Assembly: GCA_021298085.1 (NCBI GenBank)
Contig: JAJTDE010000007.1
Location: 21,931 to 85,930 of the forward strand
Source of the DNA: Rubrivivax sp.
Lineage (GTDB): Bacteria; Pseudomonadota; Gammaproteobacteria; Burkholderiales; Burkholderiaceae_C
Direction: 5' to 3'
Length of the DNA: 64,000 bases
Program-made: the position numbers and the translations under genes
Part shown: in pieces, positions 14,899-44,948 of the stretch
Numbering within the stretch: the stretch's first letter is position 1
Layout of the letters: each line of letters begins with the position of its first letter
The notes under the pieces: model-generated
Databases searched by the model: none
What the model was told of the DNA's origin: nothing
The model's input: only the letters and a program-made list of their open reading frames with translations

Positions 14899-15576
14899 AT
14901 GAGTGCACCCGGCCACGACCGACGCCTGCATCCCCACGGCGTCAGCACAACACGTTTATCGCGACCCCCGCGGCTGGCTGCCGGTCAGCGCGGCGTGGTC
15001 CTGCTGTTCGGCATGATTGCACTGGTGGTGCTGCTGATCGGCACCACGGCGCTGGTGCGGTCCATGAACACCTCGCTGATGACAGCCGGCAACTTCGGCT
15101 TCAAGCGCGACCTGACCAACCAGGGTGAACGTGCGATCCGGGTCGTGCTGCAGGCCCTGCAGACGGGCGCACTGACCAGCGAGGCCACGCGTGAGTCCAA
15201 TCAGGTCAACAGCAACTACAGCGCCAGTCTGCTGCCCAGCAACCCCCAGGGAATACCGCTGGCGCTGCTGACCGATGGGGCCTTCGCCGCCGTGGGTGTC
15301 AGCAGCAACGACATCTCCGTGGCCGACATGGGCATCACCGTGCGTTATGTGGTGGACCGCATCAGTGCGGCCGCAGGCCCCGCCGACACCAGCAACACGG
15401 TGATGGCCGACAACACCGTGCCCTCGGGTGGCAGCGGCAGCGAACTGATGACCGCCATGGACAGCTCCAGCGGTGGCCAGGGAGCCCTCGCGCCACAGGT
15501 GGTCTACCGCATCAGCGTGCGCGTCACGGGCCCGCGCAATACGCAGTCGTTCTACCAGTCCACGTTGAAGCTTTGA
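14899..15576 (+). CDS. pilX: PilX-like minor pilin assembly protein
   Basis: 'QRGVVLLFGMIALVVLLIGTTALVRSMNTSLMTAGNFGFKRDL'; upstream of pilY1. Confidence 0.8.
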   Translation: MSAPGHDRRLHPHGVSTTRLSRPPRLAAGQRGVVLLFGMIALVVLLIGTTALVRSMNTSLMTAGNFGFKRDLTNQGERAIRVVLQALQTGALTSEATRESNQVNSNYSASLLPSNPQGIPLALLTDGAFAAVGVSSNDISVADMGITVRYVVDRISAAAGPADTSNTVMADNTVPSGGSGSELMTAMDSSSGGQGALAPQVVYRISVRVTGPRNTQSFYQSTLKL

Positions 15577-15653
15577 TCGCCTTGAGGCCCACACCGGCCG
15601 ACCCAACCGCTCAATCGCCTGATCTCTCTCGCACCACAGAGGACACCACCACC

Positions 15654-18600
15654 ATGCCCACTTTGCTGCGCAAACACTTCCCCAACCTGGCGCGCCGCGC
15701 GGCCGTGGCCGTCACGACGGCCTTGCTGACGGCCAGCGTGATGGCCACCACGCCGCTGGCCGATCAACCGGTCTTCAGTGCCACCTCGGTGCCGGGCAAC
15801 ATCGCCCTGGCCCTGTCGGTGGAGTTCCCTACCGCGGTGAGCGTGGCCCACACCGACAACACCTTCAAGCCGGACGATCGTTACATGGGTTACTTTGACC
15901 CGGAGAAGTGCTACCTGTACTACCGCTCCAGCAACGAGGCTGCGCAACGGGACAGCCACTTCTATCCCTCGGGCACCGCCAGCGCCAGACTGTGCACCGG
16001 CACCCAGGACGGCAAGTGGAGTGGCAACTTCCTGAACTGGGCCACGATGCAGACCATCGACCCGTTCCGCTGGGTGCTCACCGGGGGTTACCGCTCCAAG
16101 GACGACGTGGGCATGACCTTGATCGAGAAGGCGTGGGCTTCGGGACAAGGCGGCGCCGGCAACTTTCCGAATCGCACCCTCAACGTATCCTCTGCGGTCA
16201 GCAACGTCACCCCCTTCAACCGCAGCCAGTTCAACATGCGCATCCATGGCCTGGGCAATGCGATGCGGTTCTCGATCAATGGCGATGTCAACAGCACGCC
16301 AACCCACTACAGCGACGGCACGCAACTGAACGACAACACAACGTACGAGATGATCGTCAGGGTCCGGGTCTGTGACACCACCAGTGGCGCCGGTCCGCTG
16401 GAGAGCAACTGCACACGGTACGGGAACGGTGACTACAAACCCACCGGACTGATGCAGCAGTACGCCGAGCAGATCCGCTTCAGCGCATTTGGCTACCTGA
16501 ACGACAGCAACATCTACCGCGACGGCGGTGTGCTGCGCGCACGCCAGAAGTTTGTCGGCCCGAAGCTCATCGCCCCAGGGGCGCCGGCCAGCAGCAACCC
16601 GGCCGCCGAATGGGACGCCCACACGGGCATCTTCATCCGAAACCCTGACAGCGCCGACGCCATCAACACCAACACTGCCTTCGGCGTGTCGATCGCCGAC
16701 AGCGGCGTCATCAACTACCTCAACAAGTTCGGACAGATCACCCCCGGAAACTACAAGAAGTACGACAACGTCACGGAGATGTACTACGCTGCCCTGCGCT
16801 ACTTCAGGAAGCTGGGCAATGTGGCTGAGTGGACCAGCATGAGTGGCGCCAGTACAGCCACCAAGTCCACCTGGGTCGACGGCTTTCCGGTGATCACCAA
16901 CTGGGACGATCCAATCCAGTATTCCTGCCAGCGCAACTTCATCCTCGGGATCGGCGACGTCAATACCCACGCCGACCGAAACTTGCCGGGCGCCAGCGGC
17001 ACCTACGAGCCCTCCCAGCCCGCCGCGGTGACGGCCGACACGACGGTCAATGCCGTGACGGCCACCAACAAGGTGGGCCAGCTGCACGGGGTCGGCGACA
17101 TCGGCAACACGCAGCTCTACAGCGGCGCCCTGATGGCAGGGCTGGCCTACGACGCCAACACCCAGGACATTCGCCCCGACGACCCTGCCGACCTGCTGCG
17201 CACCAAGGGGCGCCAGTCGGTGCAGACGTATTGGCTGGACGTGCTGGAGTTCCAGACCTACCAGAAAGACAACAAGTACTACCTGGCCACCAAGTACGGC
17301 GGCTTTGGCGTGCCCGAAGGCTTTGACGCCTACGGCCGCACGACCGACATCCCGACGCAATGGTGGCGCACCAACACCGACCTGGTGGGCACACAGCCCC
17401 GGCCCGACACCTACTTCATCGCATCCAGGCCCGATCAGATCGTGACTGGCCTCACCCAGGCCTTTGCCAACATCGCGTCCCGGCTGAAGGCCTTCACGAC
17501 CTCGTTTGCGACCTCGCTGCCGCAGGTCTCGGCGAGCGGCGCCGCCAGCTACGCCACCCAGTTCGACTCTCGCGGCTGGACCGGCGAGCTGATGGCCAAC
17601 CAGACCACCATCGATGCCAGCTCCGGGCTGCCCAAGCAGACCGAAGCCTGGCGCTTCTCCTCGCTGCTGGACACACAGGCGAGCGGCGATGGCTGGGATA
17701 CGAAAAGGCACATCGCGACCTGGAATACCGCGGCACGCTCGCCGGCGGCCTTCAGGCTGGCCTCCCTGGGCACCGCACAGGCAGCCGCGCTGGACACCAC
17801 GGCGCGGCCCGGCAATGACGCACAGGACCTGCTGAACTACCTGCGAGGCGAAAAGCTCCACGAGCGTTCTTCCACGGGGAGCGGCAGTGCGCGCGCTTAC
17901 CGTGACCGCAGCTCGAACATGGGCGACGTGGGGAACTTCAAGGCACGTGCAGTGGGCCGCCCCGATGCACCCTATTCCAACTCGACCAACCCGGGGTACT
18001 CGGACTTCAAGGCCGACAAGTCCTCCCGGCCGACCGTGGTCTATGTCGGCACCAATGCGGGCATGGTGCACGCCGTGCACGGCGCGCTCACCGGCGTCAA
18101 TGCCGGCCGCGAGCTCTTCGCCTATGTGCCGGGTGCCCTCTTCACCGGCCCCAGCGGGGCACCGTCCACCAATGGCCTGCAGGCCCTGGCCAACCCCGAG
18201 TACCAGCACCGCAACTTCGTCGACGCCACACCCACCGTGGCGGATGTGGACTTCGGCCGTACCTCGGGAGGCAGTGGCACTGACTGGCGAACCGTGCTCG
18301 TAGGCGGGCTGGGCAAGGGCGGCCGCGCCGTCTATGCCCTGGACATCACCAACCCGGCCGATGTGACGATAGAAGCCGATGCCGTGTCACGCGTGCTCTG
18401 GGAGTTCACCGACCCCGACCTCGGGTTTGTCTATGGCGAGCCGGCCATCGTCAAGACACGCAGGCATGGTTGGGTGGTCATCGTCGCATCGGGCTACAAC
18501 AACGCCGATGGGGGGGGCTACCTGTTCTTCATCAACCCCCGCACTGGCGTGTTGCTGGACAAGGTGTCCACCGGCGTCGGAACGGCGTCGGCCCAGGCCG

Positions 18601-19439
18601 GCATGGCCCATGTCCAGCCCTTCCTGCTCGACCGTACCGACGGCACGGCCGACGCCGTCTACGCCGGTGACCTGCTGGGCAACCTGTGGCGCTTTGACGT
18701 CTCCGCCGATGGCTCGCTGCCTGCGCCATTGCTGATGGCCGAACTGCGCGACAGCTCCGCCAACCCGCTGCCCGTGACGAGCCGGCCTCTGGTGGTGGTG
18801 CATCCCGAGAACGGGCGCCGCTACGTGACTGTGGGTACCGGTCGCCTGTTGGACGTCTCTGACACCAGCAGTGCGCAGCAACAGCGCTTCTTTGCCATCA
18901 TGGATGGCAACGCATCCAAGTTCTCCCGCAGCAACGGGGCTGATCTGCCCAGCGGCATCAGCTGGCCCATCCGCACCGCACAACTCAGGCAACTCACCGA
19001 CCTGACCCAGAAGGTGGTCCTGAACCTCAACACCGAAGTCGGTTGGTACTACGACCTGGGGCTGGCCGCGGGTGTCGGTTGGCGCGTGATCTCCGACGCC
19101 ACGTCGTTCTACGGCACCGTGGCCTTCTCAGCCATGCAGCCTGGCGGCTCGACCAATCCCTGCGAGCCAGGTGGCAACAACCGCGTCTTTGCGATCGACC
19201 TGGGCAGCGGGCAGAGCAAGCTCACCAGCACCGCCAACCCGACGGCCACGACACCTGTGGTGCAGTATGTGTCGGTCCTGCCAGGCGTGGTCACCGACCT
19301 GCGCTTCTACAGCGTCAACGGCAAGGCCCGGCTGATCGGTGGCTCCGATTCAGGGGGCACCGGTGTGATGCATGGGTCTTGGGGCACCAGCGGTGCCATG
19401 CGGCGCATGAACTGGCGCGAAGTGATCCTCAACGAGTGA
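15654..19439 (+). CDS. pilY1: type IV pilus tip/assembly protein PilY1
   Basis: Large secreted protein with C-terminal propeller, 'RPTVVYVGTNAGMVHAVHG...GRELFAYVPGALF', 'VYAGDLLGNLWRFDV'; start ATG 15654. Confidence 0.88.
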   Translation: MPTLLRKHFPNLARRAAVAVTTALLTASVMATTPLADQPVFSATSVPGNIALALSVEFPTAVSVAHTDNTFKPDDRYMGYFDPEKCYLYYRSSNEAAQRDSHFYPSGTASARLCTGTQDGKWSGNFLNWATMQTIDPFRWVLTGGYRSKDDVGMTLIEKAWASGQGGAGNFPNRTLNVSSAVSNVTPFNRSQFNMRIHGLGNAMRFSINGDVNSTPTHYSDGTQLNDNTTYEMIVRVRVCDTTSGAGPLESNCTRYGNGDYKPTGLMQQYAEQIRFSAFGYLNDSNIYRDGGVLRARQKFVGPKLIAPGAPASSNPAAEWDAHTGIFIRNPDSADAINTNTAFGVSIADSGVINYLNKFGQITPGNYKKYDNVTEMYYAALRYFRKLGNVAEWTSMSGASTATKSTWVDGFPVITNWDDPIQYSCQRNFILGIGDVNTHADRNLPGASGTYEPSQPAAVTADTTVNAVTATNKVGQLHGVGDIGNTQLYSGALMAGLAYDANTQDIRPDDPADLLRTKGRQSVQTYWLDVLEFQTYQKDNKYYLATKYGGFGVPEGFDAYGRTTDIPTQWWRTNTDLVGTQPRPDTYFIASRPDQIVTGLTQAFANIASRLKAFTTSFATSLPQVSASGAASYATQFDSRGWTGELMANQTTIDASSGLPKQTEAWRFSSLLDTQASGDGWDTKRHIATWNTAARSPAAFRLASLGTAQAAALDTTARPGNDAQDLLNYLRGEKLHERSSTGSGSARAYRDRSSNMGDVGNFKARAVGRPDAPYSNSTNPGYSDFKADKSSRPTVVYVGTNAGMVHAVHGALTGVNAGRELFAYVPGALFTGPSGAPSTNGLQALANPEYQHRNFVDATPTVADVDFGRTSGGSGTDWRTVLVGGLGKGGRAVYALDITNPADVTIEADAVSRVLWEFTDPDLGFVYGEPAIVKTRRHGWVVIVASGYNNADGGGYLFFINPRTGVLLDKVSTGVGTASAQAGMAHVQPFLLDRTDGTADAVYAGDLLGNLWRFDVSADGSLPAPLLMAELRDSSANPLPVTSRPLVVVHPENGRRYVTVGTGRLLDVSDTSSAQQQRFFAIMDGNASKFSRSNGADLPSGISWPIRTAQLRQLTDLTQKVVLNLNTEVGWYYDLGLAAGVGWRVISDATSFYGTVAFSAMQPGGSTNPCEPGGNNRVFAIDLGSGQSKLTSTANPTATTPVVQYVSVLPGVVTDLRFYSVNGKARLIGGSDSGGTGVMHGSWGTSGAMRRMNWREVILNE

Positions 19440-20118
19440 GGATCGGCGCGCGAGTGGCCCGCTTCGGTGGCCGGCCCCGCGGGCGCAATTGCAAAGGCAC
19501 CGGCGTCAAGGGCTGCAACTGTGTGCGCCAGCCGTCTTCGCCCAGAGGGCGGCCGCTGCGCAGCGCACGCCTCAGGGCGACGCTCTGGGCATCGCTGAGG
19601 CCGCCATCGATCAGCAACTGCCAGCGTGCTTGCCGCTCGAAGGGTGTGTTGCCCAGCGTCCAGTACGACTGGGGGTCAGCCACACCGTGGACCTCTCCCT
19701 GCCCCAGATGGTGTGCACGGGTGCTCAAGCCAGGGTGCTCCGGCACGCTGCGTTCGAGCCAGACCAGGGCGAGGCGCTCCCAGTGCCCAGGCTGAACAAC
19801 CGCGCTGCGAAAGCGGCCATCCCACAGCGTGCCATTGCGGCCATGGCGGGCGTTGAACCAGGCCACGTAGCGACGCCCCATGTCCTGGACAAGCCGTGCC
19901 AATGCGGCCGCCTCATGGGGCGTGGCCAACAGGGCATACCAGGTAGGCGACACATGCCAGCCGTGCAGCAGCACACGCTGGGTGGCGGCCACCTCGCGCA
20001 CCATCGCCTGCCACTGCTGGGCATCGCGCGCATCGTGCACCACAGCCTGGCCGTTATGCCCGCCCTGCAACACCAGGTGCGCGAGCCCCGGAATCACGAT
20101 GCGTGGATGGCGCGCCAT
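19429..20118 (-). CDS. REP-associated tyrosine transposase (RAYT/Y1_Tnp-like) family protein with degenerate HUH motif
   Basis: 'MARHPRIVIPGLAHLVLQGGHNGQAVVHDARD...GRRYVAWFNARHGRNGTLWDGRFRSAVV...YWTLGNTPFERQA' matches the family framework; position expected to read H-F-H reads W-Y-A. Confidence 0.75.
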   Translation of the reverse strand: MARHPRIVIPGLAHLVLQGGHNGQAVVHDARDAQQWQAMVREVAATQRVLLHGWHVSPTWYALLATPHEAAALARLVQDMGRRYVAWFNARHGRNGTLWDGRFRSAVVQPGHWERLALVWLERSVPEHPGLSTRAHHLGQGEVHGVADPQSYWTLGNTPFERQARWQLLIDGGLSDAQSVALRRALRSGRPLGEDGWRTQLQPLTPVPLQLRPRGRPPKRATRAPILTR

Positions 20119-20131
20119 GGCTGCCCGCGAC

Positions 20132-21232
20132 TCAGGCTTTGCAGCGCCGCTCGATCACCTCGGCCACCAGGGCGGCATCTGCACCCTGCACAACCGCCTC
20201 TCCCAGGCGCTTCAGCAGCACATAGCGGATGCGCCCCTCCAATGACTTCTTGTCATGCCCCATCAACTCGAGGTAGCGCGACGCGCCGAGCGCTGGCCCC
20301 TGGACGGGCAGACCGGCGCGCTGCACGAGGTGCTCCAACCGGGCGGCCAGACCAGGGTCGATCAAGCCCAGGCGAACGGACAGGTCGGCAGCCATCAGCA
20401 TCCCGCAACCCACCGCTTCGCCATGGAGCCATTGCCCATAGCCCAAGCCGGTCTCGATCGCGTGGCCGAAGGTGTGGCCAAAGTTCAGGATGGCGCGCAG
20501 CCCTGACTCTCGCTCGTCGGCACCCACCACCTCGGCCTTGATCTCGCAGGCACGTTGCACGGCATGGGCCAGGGCCGCCGGGTCCCGCGCCAGCAGCGCG
20601 TCCAGGTTCTGCTCGAGCCAGCCAAAGAACCCCGCATCGGCAATCGGCCCGTACTTGATGACTTCACCCAGGCCCGCGCTGAACTCGCGGTCCGGCAGGG
20701 TGTCGAGTGTGGCCAGGTCACACAGCACGCGCAGTGGCTGGTAGAACAGCCCGATCATGTTCTTGCCCAGCGGGTGGTTGATGGCCGTCTTGCCGCCCAC
20801 CGAGGAGTCCACCTGCGCCAGCAAGGTGGTCGGGATCTGCACAAAGGGCACGCCGCGCATGTAGCAGCCCGCGGCAAATCCGGTCATGTCACCGACGACC
20901 CCGCCCCCCAGTGCATACAGGACCGTGTGCCGGTCAGCGCCCGCGCCGAGCAGGGCGTCAAAAATACGGTTCAGCGCAGGCCAATCCTTGTGCACTTCGC
21001 CGTCCGGCAGGCTGAGCAGCTCGACGTGCGCGTGTCGCTGCCGCAGTCGGGCCAGGACCGGCGCCGCCCAGAGCGGCGCCACTGTCTCGTTGCTCACCAC
21101 CAGCGCGCGGTGCGAGCGGGGCAGCCCTTCCCAGCTGGACGGGTCATCCAGCAGTGAACGGCCGATCAGGATGTCGTACTCTGCCGAGGCGGCCTTGACA
21201 GAGACACGGGTAGGGGCAACAGAAGCGCTCAT
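20132..21232 (-). CDS. aroB: 3-dehydroquinate synthase
   Basis: '[85 protein letters not shown]'; start at internal ATG 21232. Confidence 0.96.
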
Positions 21233-21278
21233 GGGTCTGCAGTGTAGGGCGCGCGTGGTGCGCCACACCGCGGGGCGC

Positions 21279-21887
21279 TCAGCCCGCCGGCGGCACCAAC
21301 GGGGAGTCAGGCGACGCCGGCCCCTCGAAAGACGCCACGGGTTGAACCGCGTCTTCGCCCAGTTCCAGCTGCATGCGCACCATTGCCACCAGCGTCGCCA
21401 CCGAGGGTCGGGCCGCCTCGACGGTGTAATGCGCGGTCTCGCGGTACAGCGGGTCACGCTCCCGGAACAGGTCGCGCAGCCGTTTCAACGGGTCGGCCAC
21501 CTGCAACAGCGGGCGCTGGGTGTCGTGCCTCAGGCGACGAAACAATTCTTCAGGGGTTGAGCGCAGGTAGATCACGCGCCGGTGCTCACGCAGCACAGTC
21601 CGGTTCTGTGGCCGCAGCACAGCGCCGCCGCCGGTGGCCAAGACCGTGCCGGGCTGTTGCGCAAGCTCTGTCAGCACGCTGCTTTCGAGCTCCCGGAACG
21701 CGGCCTCACCATGGACCTCAAAGAAGTCCCTGACCGGCATCCCCACCCGCTGCTCGATGGCATGGTCGGTGTCGACAAAAAGCAGCCCCAGCTGGCGCGC
21801 CACCAGCCGCCCGACCGTGGACTTGCCACAGCCGGGCATGCCGACAAGGGCGACGGGCTTGGAGGGGCTCAAGTCGCTGGCAGCCAC
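21279..21887 (-). CDS. aroK: shikimate kinase
   Basis: '[57 protein letters not shown]'. Confidence 0.94.
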
Positions 21888-24284
21888 TCAGTTCGGGTTG
21901 GTGCAGGCGCTCTCTCGACCATACGGGCTGACCCGGAAGGCGGGCGCCTTGGTCTGGTCCGTCACGTCGTCACCCGGTGCGGGAAGGTTCCCCAGACCGT
22001 AGTAGAGACCGCTGTAGCGCGCGCGTGCCTCTGTGCCGGAAATACCGGACGCCGTGACCGTGATGATGTAGTCGACCCAGGTGGCTAGGTCCTTGCCGTA
22101 CTCGATCTGCACAATCGCCAGGCCATTGGCATCGGTCTTGGCCGCGCCTACCATCTTGATGGCCACGTCCGATTTCCGGGCGTCGAGCTGGCCGTTCCAG
22201 TTCAAGTCTTCCTCACGCCCCCCCAACGAAGGCGCTGCCACGTCGGGATCAAAGCGGCCAGCCTCCCGGACACCGTTGCGGTTCACGTCTTCCTGCGGGC
22301 AGCTGGGTTGGATCGTCGAGCTCAGCTGGTTCCAGGCGCGGGTGGCCGCGTTCCATTGGTAGTTCTCGGTCTGCGCCAACCTCATCTGCTGCGTCCAGAG
22401 CTCACCACTCCAGACATAGTCGCCCTTGTAGTACGCCGGCAGATCAATCGACGGTGTGATCAGCACGTCGGGCTTGGCCTGGCCGGCGGCATCCACCACC
22501 ATCACCACAAACTCCTTGATGTAGGTCAGGTCGGCCGCACCCTTCTTGATCAGCTCGTTGGTCCGGATGCTGACGGCCAGGGCCTCTTGCACCACGGTCA
22601 GCGTCGAACGCGCCTGGTTGGGGCAGGTGGCAGGGTCGAAGTCGTTGGTGTCATAGCAGATGCGCACCGTGACACCTGCCGTCGGGCTGGCCCGCTGGCC
22701 AGGTGTGAAGGTGCCGCGGGCCGCGCCTGAGGTGTCTGAGAAGGCGTAGGTGCCGCCCAGCCAGCTCACCTGTCCATCGGTGGAGTTGGCATTGCCGTCG
22801 AGGTCAAAGCGCACACGCACCCGGGGGATCGGCTGGTTGTTGGCGCCGTAGAAGAGCGCCCGCAGTTCCACCTGGTTGGCGACGCTGCCCACCGTGTTGA
22901 CCGAGACCACACTGGGGCTCGGGGTGATCGAGGCCGATTGGGGCACCGAGCTGGCCGGGTCGATGGCGCCGGTGCCAATCTCGACCGTCGAGATTCGCTC
23001 AGCACCGGCCGCGCTGGCGGTGAAGGTGACATTGCCGGCTGGTGCCGTGTAGCTGTAGACAAACTTTCCGTTGATGTCCGTCAGGCCTGAGGCTGCCGGC
23101 AAGCCTGGCGCCGTGATCGACACGTTCTGGCCCACCATGGGCAGGCCGTTGGTGTCCACCAGCGTGTATTCGACGCGATTGCCCGTCGAGCCGGAGTTCA
23201 CGCGCGGGGCAAACGATGCACGCAACTCGGCCCCTTCCACGGTGAACGAGGAAGAGCGGGTGAGGCTGCCACTGGTGGCAGTGACAGTCACGACCCGGTT
23301 GGAGCGGTCTGCACCGATGGCCACGGCAGCCGTGACCTGCCCTTGCGCATTGGTGGTCGTGCCACTCACGGTGGCCACCGCGCTGGCGTCGACCCGGATC
23401 GTCACCGGGATGCCGTTGAGGGCGTTGCGGTTGCCGTCGACGGCTGTGGCCGTCGCGGTGATGGTGCTGCTGCCGCCGTTGTTCAGCTTGGGTGCGCTCA
23501 GCACCAGGCTGAGATCGGCTGCCGTGGGAGGGCCTACACCCGTCACGTCGGTTACCAGCACTTGCGCGGTGCGAACCGTGTTGCCGGAACGGGCGGTGAT
23601 GGTGATCGCGCGGTTGGTGCGGTCGCTGCCCACGCCCACGGCGCCTGTGACCACGCCTTGATCGTTGGTGACCGAACCACTGGGCACCAGCACCGCGTTG
23701 GCATCGACCGTCAAGCTCACGTCGACACCGCGCAGCACGTTGCGCTTGGCGTCCAGGGCCGTCGCGGTGGCGGTGACCGACTGGGCGCCGGTGTTGGCAA
23801 TGGTGGGGGATGACAGCGACAGGATCAGGTCAGCAGCCACGGCTGACGCGCCGCCCGCGTCACGCACCTCGAGGGTGGCTGTCCGGGTGATGCTGCCGCT
23901 GACAGCGGTCACCGTCACCGTGCGAACGCTGCGGTCGGCACCGATCCCGACATTGGCCGTCAACTGGCCTTGCGTGTCAGTCTTGGTCGCCCCGGGGGTC
24001 ACAATCGCATTGGCATCGACGGAGAGCGTCACCGGAACGCCGGACACCGCATTGCGGTTGGCATCGATGGCCGTGGCCGTCGCGACCACCGACTCAGTGC
24101 CATTGTTGGCCACGTTAGGTGCACTGAGCACCAGCACCACATCGGCAGCCACCGGCGCCTTGCTGTTGCTGGTGCCACCACCCCCTCCTACCACGGGCGT
24201 TCCAGCGTCGCCGCCCCCACCACACGCCGCCAGCGTGAGTGTCATGAGCCCAAGCGCCAACCAGCGAGTCCATACGCTCTTCAT
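21888..24284 (-). CDS. putative lipoprotein with tandem Ig-like (Big-1/invasin-type) domains
   Basis: Lipobox-like 'LTLAACGGGG'; three similar ~100-aa units ('ADVVLVLSAPNVANNGTESVVATATAIDANRNAVSGVPVTLSVDANA...', 'ADLILSLSSPTIANTGAQSVTATATALDAKRNVLRGVDVSLTVDANA...', 'ADLSLVLSAPKLNNGGSSTITATATAVDGNRNALNGIPVTIRVDASA...'); D-x-N-x-N-G motifs near the C-terminus. Confidence 0.8.
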   Translation of the reverse strand: MKSVWTRWLALGLMTLTLAACGGGGDAGTPVVGGGGGTSNSKAPVAADVVLVLSAPNVANNGTESVVATATAIDANRNAVSGVPVTLSVDANAIVTPGATKTDTQGQLTANVGIGADRSVRTVTVTAVSGSITRTATLEVRDAGGASAVAADLILSLSSPTIANTGAQSVTATATALDAKRNVLRGVDVSLTVDANAVLVPSGSVTNDQGVVTGAVGVGSDRTNRAITITARSGNTVRTAQVLVTDVTGVGPPTAADLSLVLSAPKLNNGGSSTITATATAVDGNRNALNGIPVTIRVDASAVATVSGTTTNAQGQVTAAVAIGADRSNRVVTVTATSGSLTRSSSFTVEGAELRASFAPRVNSGSTGNRVEYTLVDTNGLPMVGQNVSITAPGLPAASGLTDINGKFVYSYTAPAGNVTFTASAAGAERISTVEIGTGAIDPASSVPQSASITPSPSVVSVNTVGSVANQVELRALFYGANNQPIPRVRVRFDLDGNANSTDGQVSWLGGTYAFSDTSGAARGTFTPGQRASPTAGVTVRICYDTNDFDPATCPNQARSTLTVVQEALAVSIRTNELIKKGAADLTYIKEFVVMVVDAAGQAKPDVLITPSIDLPAYYKGDYVWSGELWTQQMRLAQTENYQWNAATRAWNQLSSTIQPSCPQEDVNRNGVREAGRFDPDVAAPSLGGREEDLNWNGQLDARKSDVAIKMVGAAKTDANGLAIVQIEYGKDLATWVDYIITVTASGISGTEARARYSGLYYGLGNLPAPGDDVTDQTKAPAFRVSPYGRESACTNPN

Positions 24285-44733: not shown

Positions 44734-44775
44734 GTACGGACTGAAAACCGTCCTGAGGACGGTTTTCAGCCGTAC
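44734..44775. repeat. long near-perfect inverted repeat between soxY and soxZ
   Basis: GTACGG-A-CTGAAAACCGTCC-TGA-GGACGGTTTTCAG-CCGTAC: 19 paired positions, one bulged A, 3-nt loop, starting directly after the soxY stop. Confidence 0.9.
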
Positions 44776-44900
44776 GAACCGACCGAGCTCTGCGAGGTCG
44801 TGGATGAGCGAGCGAACCGACCGAGCTCTGCGAGGTCGTGGATGAGCGAGCGAACCGACCGAGCTTGAGCGAGCGAACCGACCGAGCTCTGCGAAGTCAC
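44775..44900. repeat. 38-bp tandem direct repeat (two exact copies plus two partial copies) between soxY and soxZ
   Basis: CGAACCGACCGAGCTCTGCGAGGTCGTGGATGAGCGAG at 44775-44812 and 44813-44850; truncated unit 44851-44873; partial unit 44874-44900. Confidence 0.92.
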
Positions 44901-44948
44901 CAGGCCCAGATCATTTACCTCAACGTTTGAATTCACAGGAGAACTGCC

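Follow-up and report, generated by a model that had tools for sequence, protein, structure and literature searches.

A probable host-domesticated, non-catalytic pseudo-transposase of the RAYT lineage encoded behind aroB in Rubrivivax

The closest described proteins to the one considered here are the TnpA-Y1 transposases of subclass 2.1, which have been equated with group 1 of the REP-associated tyrosine transposases (RAYTs) of Bertels et al. (Quentin et al. 2018, PMC6006769). TnpA-Y1 proteins carry a Y---NP signature, N119 of E. coli TnpAREP being a metal-site residue, and subclass 2.1 has been described without REP association (PMC6006769). A flanking pair of REPs in inverted orientation serves as a criterion for RAYTs (Nunvar 2010, PMC2817692), the alpha3 helix and the residues around beta4 of E. 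coli TnpA-REP contact DNA (PMC8266576), and the exact host function of domesticated RAYTs is stated to be unknown (PMC8049555). Here we analysed a stretch of 64,000 nucleotides from Rubrivivax sp. (henceforth referred to as the window) and a gene in it that probably encodes a host-domesticated, non-catalytic DNA-binding pseudo-transposase of TnpA-Y1 subclass 2.1/RAYT group 1, its DNA binding being suggested by the fold and by conserved residues. The features of the gene and its neighbours are listed in Table 1.

Table 1. Coordinates in the window of the pseudo-transposase gene, its parts and its neighbours.
Feature	Position	Strand	Basis or remark
RAYT/TnpA-Y1-derived pseudo-transposase, 229 aa, single copy	19429..20118	(-)	Open frame, fold, genome search
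W60-Y61-A62 replacing the HUH metal-binding pair	19933..19941	(-)	Intact relatives have HFH/HLH/HVH in these columns
Helix 72-92, corresponding to DNA-binding alpha3; Q78/R82 kept in dead members	19843..19905	(-)	AF2 model and conservation
GTLWDGRFR (96-104) around beta4, kept in intact as well as dead members	19807..19833	(-)	Column conservation
W120-L-E-R-S124-V125 replacing the catalytic Y---NP	19744..19761	(-)	Tyrosine column set by RYIELNPVR members
W-T-LGNTPFER (153-162), signature opening the C-terminal helical domain (helices 159-204)	19633..19662	(-)	AF2 and conservation
C-terminal basic tail PRGRPPKR (about 211-221), AT-hook-like RGRP core	19456..19488	(-)	Motif likeness only
aroB (3-dehydroquinate synthase)	20132..21457	(-)	Ends 13 bp before the pseudo-transposase ATG
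aroK (shikimate kinase)	21279..21887	(-)	PF01202
pilY1-like gene	15573..19439	(+)	Convergent; 3' end overlaps the pseudo-transposase stop by 11 bp

The reading frame is intact from its ATG start through 229 codons to a TGA stop, as an earlier note on this DNA had stated, its G+C at the three codon positions (0.75/0.53/0.80) follows the pattern typical of a coding frame and dozens of orthologues keep it open, so the ORF behaves as a real gene. Automatic annotation would probably overlook the relationship of its product, since the protein scores only 15 bits (E 0.027) with Pfam Y1_Tnp, short of the curated cut-off of 23 bits and outside the Pfam threshold of E < 0.01 used in the TnpA-Y1 survey (PMC6006769), and has no match in NCBIfam, although its relatives do: NF047646 (REP_Tyr_transpos) matches 29 of the 32 aligned relatives. 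A search of PHROGs with the window protein gave nothing above noise, and the genome from which the window comes holds no Y1_Tnp match at E ≤ 0.001. At E ≤ 1e-3 the pseudo-transposase matches itself only in this genome and is thus present in a single copy. A scan of named genomes with the single window protein found no match; the scan with the alignment recovered the family.

An AlphaFold (AF2) model of the window protein, computed from an alignment of 52 orthologues, has a mean pLDDT of 93.2 and a pTM of 0.87, and its best Foldseek match in the PDB is 4ER8 (E 1.4e-6), followed by the IS608 and ISDra2 transposases; the family profile also picks up 4ER8 and ISDra2 proteins at the sequence level. 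The entry 4ER8 is E. coli TnpA-REP, a REP-associated tyrosine transposase, with a bound REP hairpin. The modelled fold and the family alignment agree with the RAYT/Y1 framework that the earlier note had proposed, and the match to 4ER8 together with those to NF047646 among relatives makes the relationship secure. Judged by sequence, the lineage is that of TnpA-Y1 subclass 2.1/RAYT group 1, an assignment that rests on motif and length and not on the profiles of Quentin et al.: the tree and the alignment with intact LGNTPFER/YIELNP members indicate descent from YIELNP-type proteins with a C-terminal helical extension. The window protein shares with this subclass, which is common in beta-proteobacteria, the core fold, the YIELNP-type relatives, the helical C-terminal extension, the low copy number, the apparent lack of REP association and the length (229 aa against a subclass median of 238 aa), but lacks the HUH pair, the catalytic tyrosine and the N-P that follows it. 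E. coli TnpA-REP (RAYT group 2), the closest solved structure, has the core in common, with alpha3 and beta4 at DNA-contact positions, but it has a working catalytic site, is flanked by REPs and is specific for them; the window protein shows none of this and carries an additional C-terminal domain and RGRP tail. The IS200/IS605 transposases (IS608 TnpA and ISDra2 TnpA) share the HUH/Y1 fold, whereas the window gene is single copy, shows no sign of mobility, has no tnpB neighbour and encodes no catalytic residues. With one copy only, at a locus that is syntenic among relatives, the gene does not fit a mobile multi-copy IS200/IS605 element with terminal hairpins.

In an alignment of 169 family sequences, residues 60 and 62 of the window protein fall exactly on the H-x-H columns, where the tryptophan and alanine of W60-Y61-A62 (TGG TAT GCC) stand in place of the metal-binding histidines, precisely as the earlier note had read them. 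The same columns hold HFH in relatives that likewise lie at the aroB locus (L006, L007, L017, L018, L020 and L023), and no second HUH motif occurs elsewhere in the window protein. The earlier note was right that the catalytic core is lost and that the HUH motif is gone, but its account was incomplete: the column of the catalytic tyrosine (the Y of YIELNP) is W120, and the N-P of intact members is S124-V125, S124 corresponding to N119 of E. coli TnpA-REP. The window protein has thus lost the tyrosine and the asparagine in addition to both histidines.

The window gene is not peculiar in this: catalysis has been lost repeatedly across the family, which the earlier note had overlooked, as it had the conserved position at aroK-aroB-(dgt). 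The HUH pair is lost in 43 of 49 sequences within the genus and in 83 of the 169 family sequences, the latter not being an unbiased frequency since the family queries were built mostly from dead (that is, catalysis-lost) members. The tyrosine is absent from most sequences without HUH (in raw counts, 75 sequences keep both, 66 have lost both and 28 are mixed, with few supported independent pairs among them). What replaces the histidines varies by clade: EVQ/ELQ/ELR, RLL, QVL, ALH and WYA/EYR/GFS occur in the genus and its close relatives, Janthinobacterium has QLH and retains the tyrosine, Piscinibacter has RVL, and AVQ/QVQ, RVQ and further forms are found elsewhere. HFH is retained at the same locus in six same-genus genomes, five of which also have the tyrosine. 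On the best main tree, which was built without the catalytic columns, a count that assumes loss only and no regain gives 21 losses of HUH, a figure that falls to 12 when branches are required to have support of at least 90 and to five at 95; a bootstrapped tree of 61 sequences gives 18 losses, with 10, four and two at supports of 80, 90 and 95, respectively. A single split between HUH-positive and HUH-negative sequences is rejected (p-AU 1.9e-51). In six Janthinobacterium orthologues (L102, L113, L101, L100, L096 and L099) the first histidine alone is lost, giving QLH, and the tyrosine is kept; these may stand partway along the loss of catalysis while purifying selection acts on them.

Dead and intact members differ in few of their conserved columns. 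Of the columns that intact members conserve to at least 85%, H15, H60, H62, R127 and W131 are the only ones to drop under 50% in the dead, in which R3, R6, Q78, R82, G96, L98, W99, G101, R102 and G215-R216-P217 are 96-100% conserved. The W-LGNTPF-R motif is invariant among the compared sequences, all of which were chosen for LGNTPF, and it is therefore not independent evidence. Features common to dead and intact members are likely to mark the selected function. The GxLWxGR segment adjoins strand 104-108 of the AF2 model, the counterpart of beta4. The C-terminal helices matched no named HTH family in Pfam, and the basic tail, in which GRP (215-217) does not vary across the family, resembles AT-hook proteins in its RGRP core, a call that rests on four residues; in the model, helices 159-204 and the PRGRP tail likely add DNA-binding surface. 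We propose that the pseudo-transposase would be unable to coordinate metal or to form a phosphotyrosine bond with DNA and would be kept by the host as a DNA-binding protein, probably expressed from an aroK-aroB read-through transcript. Its probable ligand would be folded or single-stranded DNA, or AT-rich duplex. Helix alpha3 and the GxLWxGR strand, both conserved, would probably make the contact, assisted by the helical domain at the C-terminus and by the RGRP tail; most economically, the protein would act by occupancy, in a structural or regulatory role at DNA.

The nearest relative of the window gene is only ~50% identical, and dN/dS was thus obtained from pairs of relatives and not from the window branch. 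Close dead pairs gave dN/dS of about 0.05-0.17 (0.05-0.15 for L099/L100, L100/L101, L008/L016, L048/L049, L005/L004 and L010/L011) and close intact pairs 0.05-0.18 (YN00), with values of 0.05 for L008/L016 (EVQ), 0.08 for L048/L049 (EVQ/ELQ), 0.15 for L010/L011 (RLL) and 0.09-0.17 for the Janthinobacterium QLH pairs; distant pairs gave 0.3-0.5 by NG86, with synonymous sites near saturation. Measurable dead copies are under purifying selection, as intact ones are. Since orthologues with the same losses are held by selection and do not decay neutrally, a function appears to be retained, as the earlier note had suggested, and we consider it improbable that the gene is a slowly decaying, functionless relic whose frame stays open by chance or through the overlap with the operon and pilY1. 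A relic would account for the loss of all catalytic residues, for the long branch of the window gene (0.63, its sisters having 0.46 and 0.41) and for the faster evolution of dead members as a group (root-to-tip 2.86 against 2.42 in intact ones), the last two of which are compatible with partial relaxation. However, besides the low dN/dS of close dead pairs, the extracted dead same-genus orthologues are open over about 216-240 codons, the single stop reported in cases of the L014/L032 type is the natural C-terminal stop where extracted, loss is limited to the catalytic columns and a few neighbours, and of 42 highly conserved columns the window protein keeps the consensus residue in 34, compared with 69 of the remaining 185. 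Another reading is an enzyme that remains active through a relocated or replaced active site, for example with E60 as a new metal ligand in relatives, and the replacement is indeed non-random in the main Rubrivivax clade, where position 60 is mostly E and position 62 mostly Q or R. We regard this as very unlikely: in the window protein these positions are W and A and the nucleophile column lacks a tyrosine, and the replacements differ between clades (WYA, GFS, RLL, QLH, AVQ, RVL and ALH), whereas a single new active site should have left one pattern.

The surroundings of the gene bear on what a retained DNA-binding protein might do. In the window, pilMNOPQ lie upstream and pilW/pilY1 downstream of the pseudo-transposase; a 798-aa protein with Ig-like repeats is encoded at 21888-24284 (-), between pilQ and aroK in the pilMNOPQ-aroK-aroB cluster. 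The usual order among relatives is aroK-aroB-dgt-pseudo-transposase, which puts the gene last in an operon for amino-acid synthesis. Each of the 49 sequences examined from the genus lies behind aroB or dgt, at a median distance of 29 bp from where the BLAST match ends. Of 71 genomes of the genus, 64 have a match, in most cases a single one, and seven have none, so the gene may be dispensable; one copy is retained in genomes of 1.2-2.1 Mb of the same order (G102, G146, G252, G383, G405 and G427). This distribution is that of a host gene and not of an element, and the single copy, fixed locus and syntenic inheritance bear out the earlier note's suggestion of a domesticated transposase. The stable linkage to aroK-aroB-dgt and the flanking pilus genes would suit a specific regulator of the neighbourhood that represses or attenuates either the aroK-aroB-(dgt) operon or the type IV pilus genes beside it. 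We give this a small but appreciable chance, since dgt (dGTP triphosphohydrolase) is absent from between aroB and the window gene (20118-20132) and no TIGR01353 match to a dGTPase occurs in the whole 99%-complete window genome (G000), which keeps the pseudo-transposase all the same; moreover, several family members (in Janthinobacterium, Piscinibacter and Caldimonas) have neither aroB nor dgt within 6 kb, and no binding site was identified. The resemblance of the fold to E. coli TnpA-REP in complex with a REP hairpin would instead fit a protein that recognises REP/BIME hairpins without cleaving them, and the earlier note had named REP binding as a possible function. This part of its reading found no support and seems to us most improbable. 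No REP-like palindromes flank the gene, repeats and inverted repeats nearby being imperfect chance matches in coding regions, and the 13 bp to aroB and the 11-bp overlap with pilY1 leave no space for flanking REPs. A de novo search with k-mers and hairpin stems yielded local tandem or low-complexity words only, and detected no dispersed family of palindromic repeats in about 240 kb of readable window genome (about 5%, part of the sample being masked as N) or in 400 kb of G019, a motif-intact HFH relative. The parent subclass 2.1, too, is reported without REP association (PMC6006769).

We therefore favour the reading as a host-domesticated, non-catalytic DNA-binding protein. Tentatively, the same might apply more widely: a transposase-derived family of the Burkholderiales, largely fixed at aroK-aroB-dgt, could have been domesticated for DNA binding, with catalysis dispensable and lost repeatedly and with even the members that keep HUH and tyrosine selected for a non-catalytic role. 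If so, bacterial pseudo-transposases would form a general class that has escaped notice because sequences without the motif are discarded in surveys. The TnpA-Y1 survey required HuH and Y, and set aside 202 of 924 sequences without core motifs as probably non-functional (PMC6006769); our results suggest that filters demanding HUH and tyrosine remove functional genes. Loss of the nuclease under purifying selection separates host function from transposase activity and makes the former testable. The lineage is known; the literature searched contained no report of a selected, HUH-less branch linked to the aro operon, nor of HUH-less RAYTs or of the operon-linked gene, although an earlier mention is possible.

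Three further observations were made. The layout in which the gene follows aroB without dgt is common to two groups of related genomes (L006/L007/L017/L018/L020/L023/L024 and L001/L002/L071), of which one mostly retains HFH and the other has lost it in three ways (WYA, EYR and GFS). At L055 (G085 C78), 4 kb hold two divergent intact members together with a third, weak match, in contrast to the aroB-linked genes with their single copy. Elsewhere in the window, positions 44775-44911 hold a tandem repeat with a 38-bp unit, CGAACCGACCGAGCTCTGCGAGGTCGTGGATGAGCGAG.
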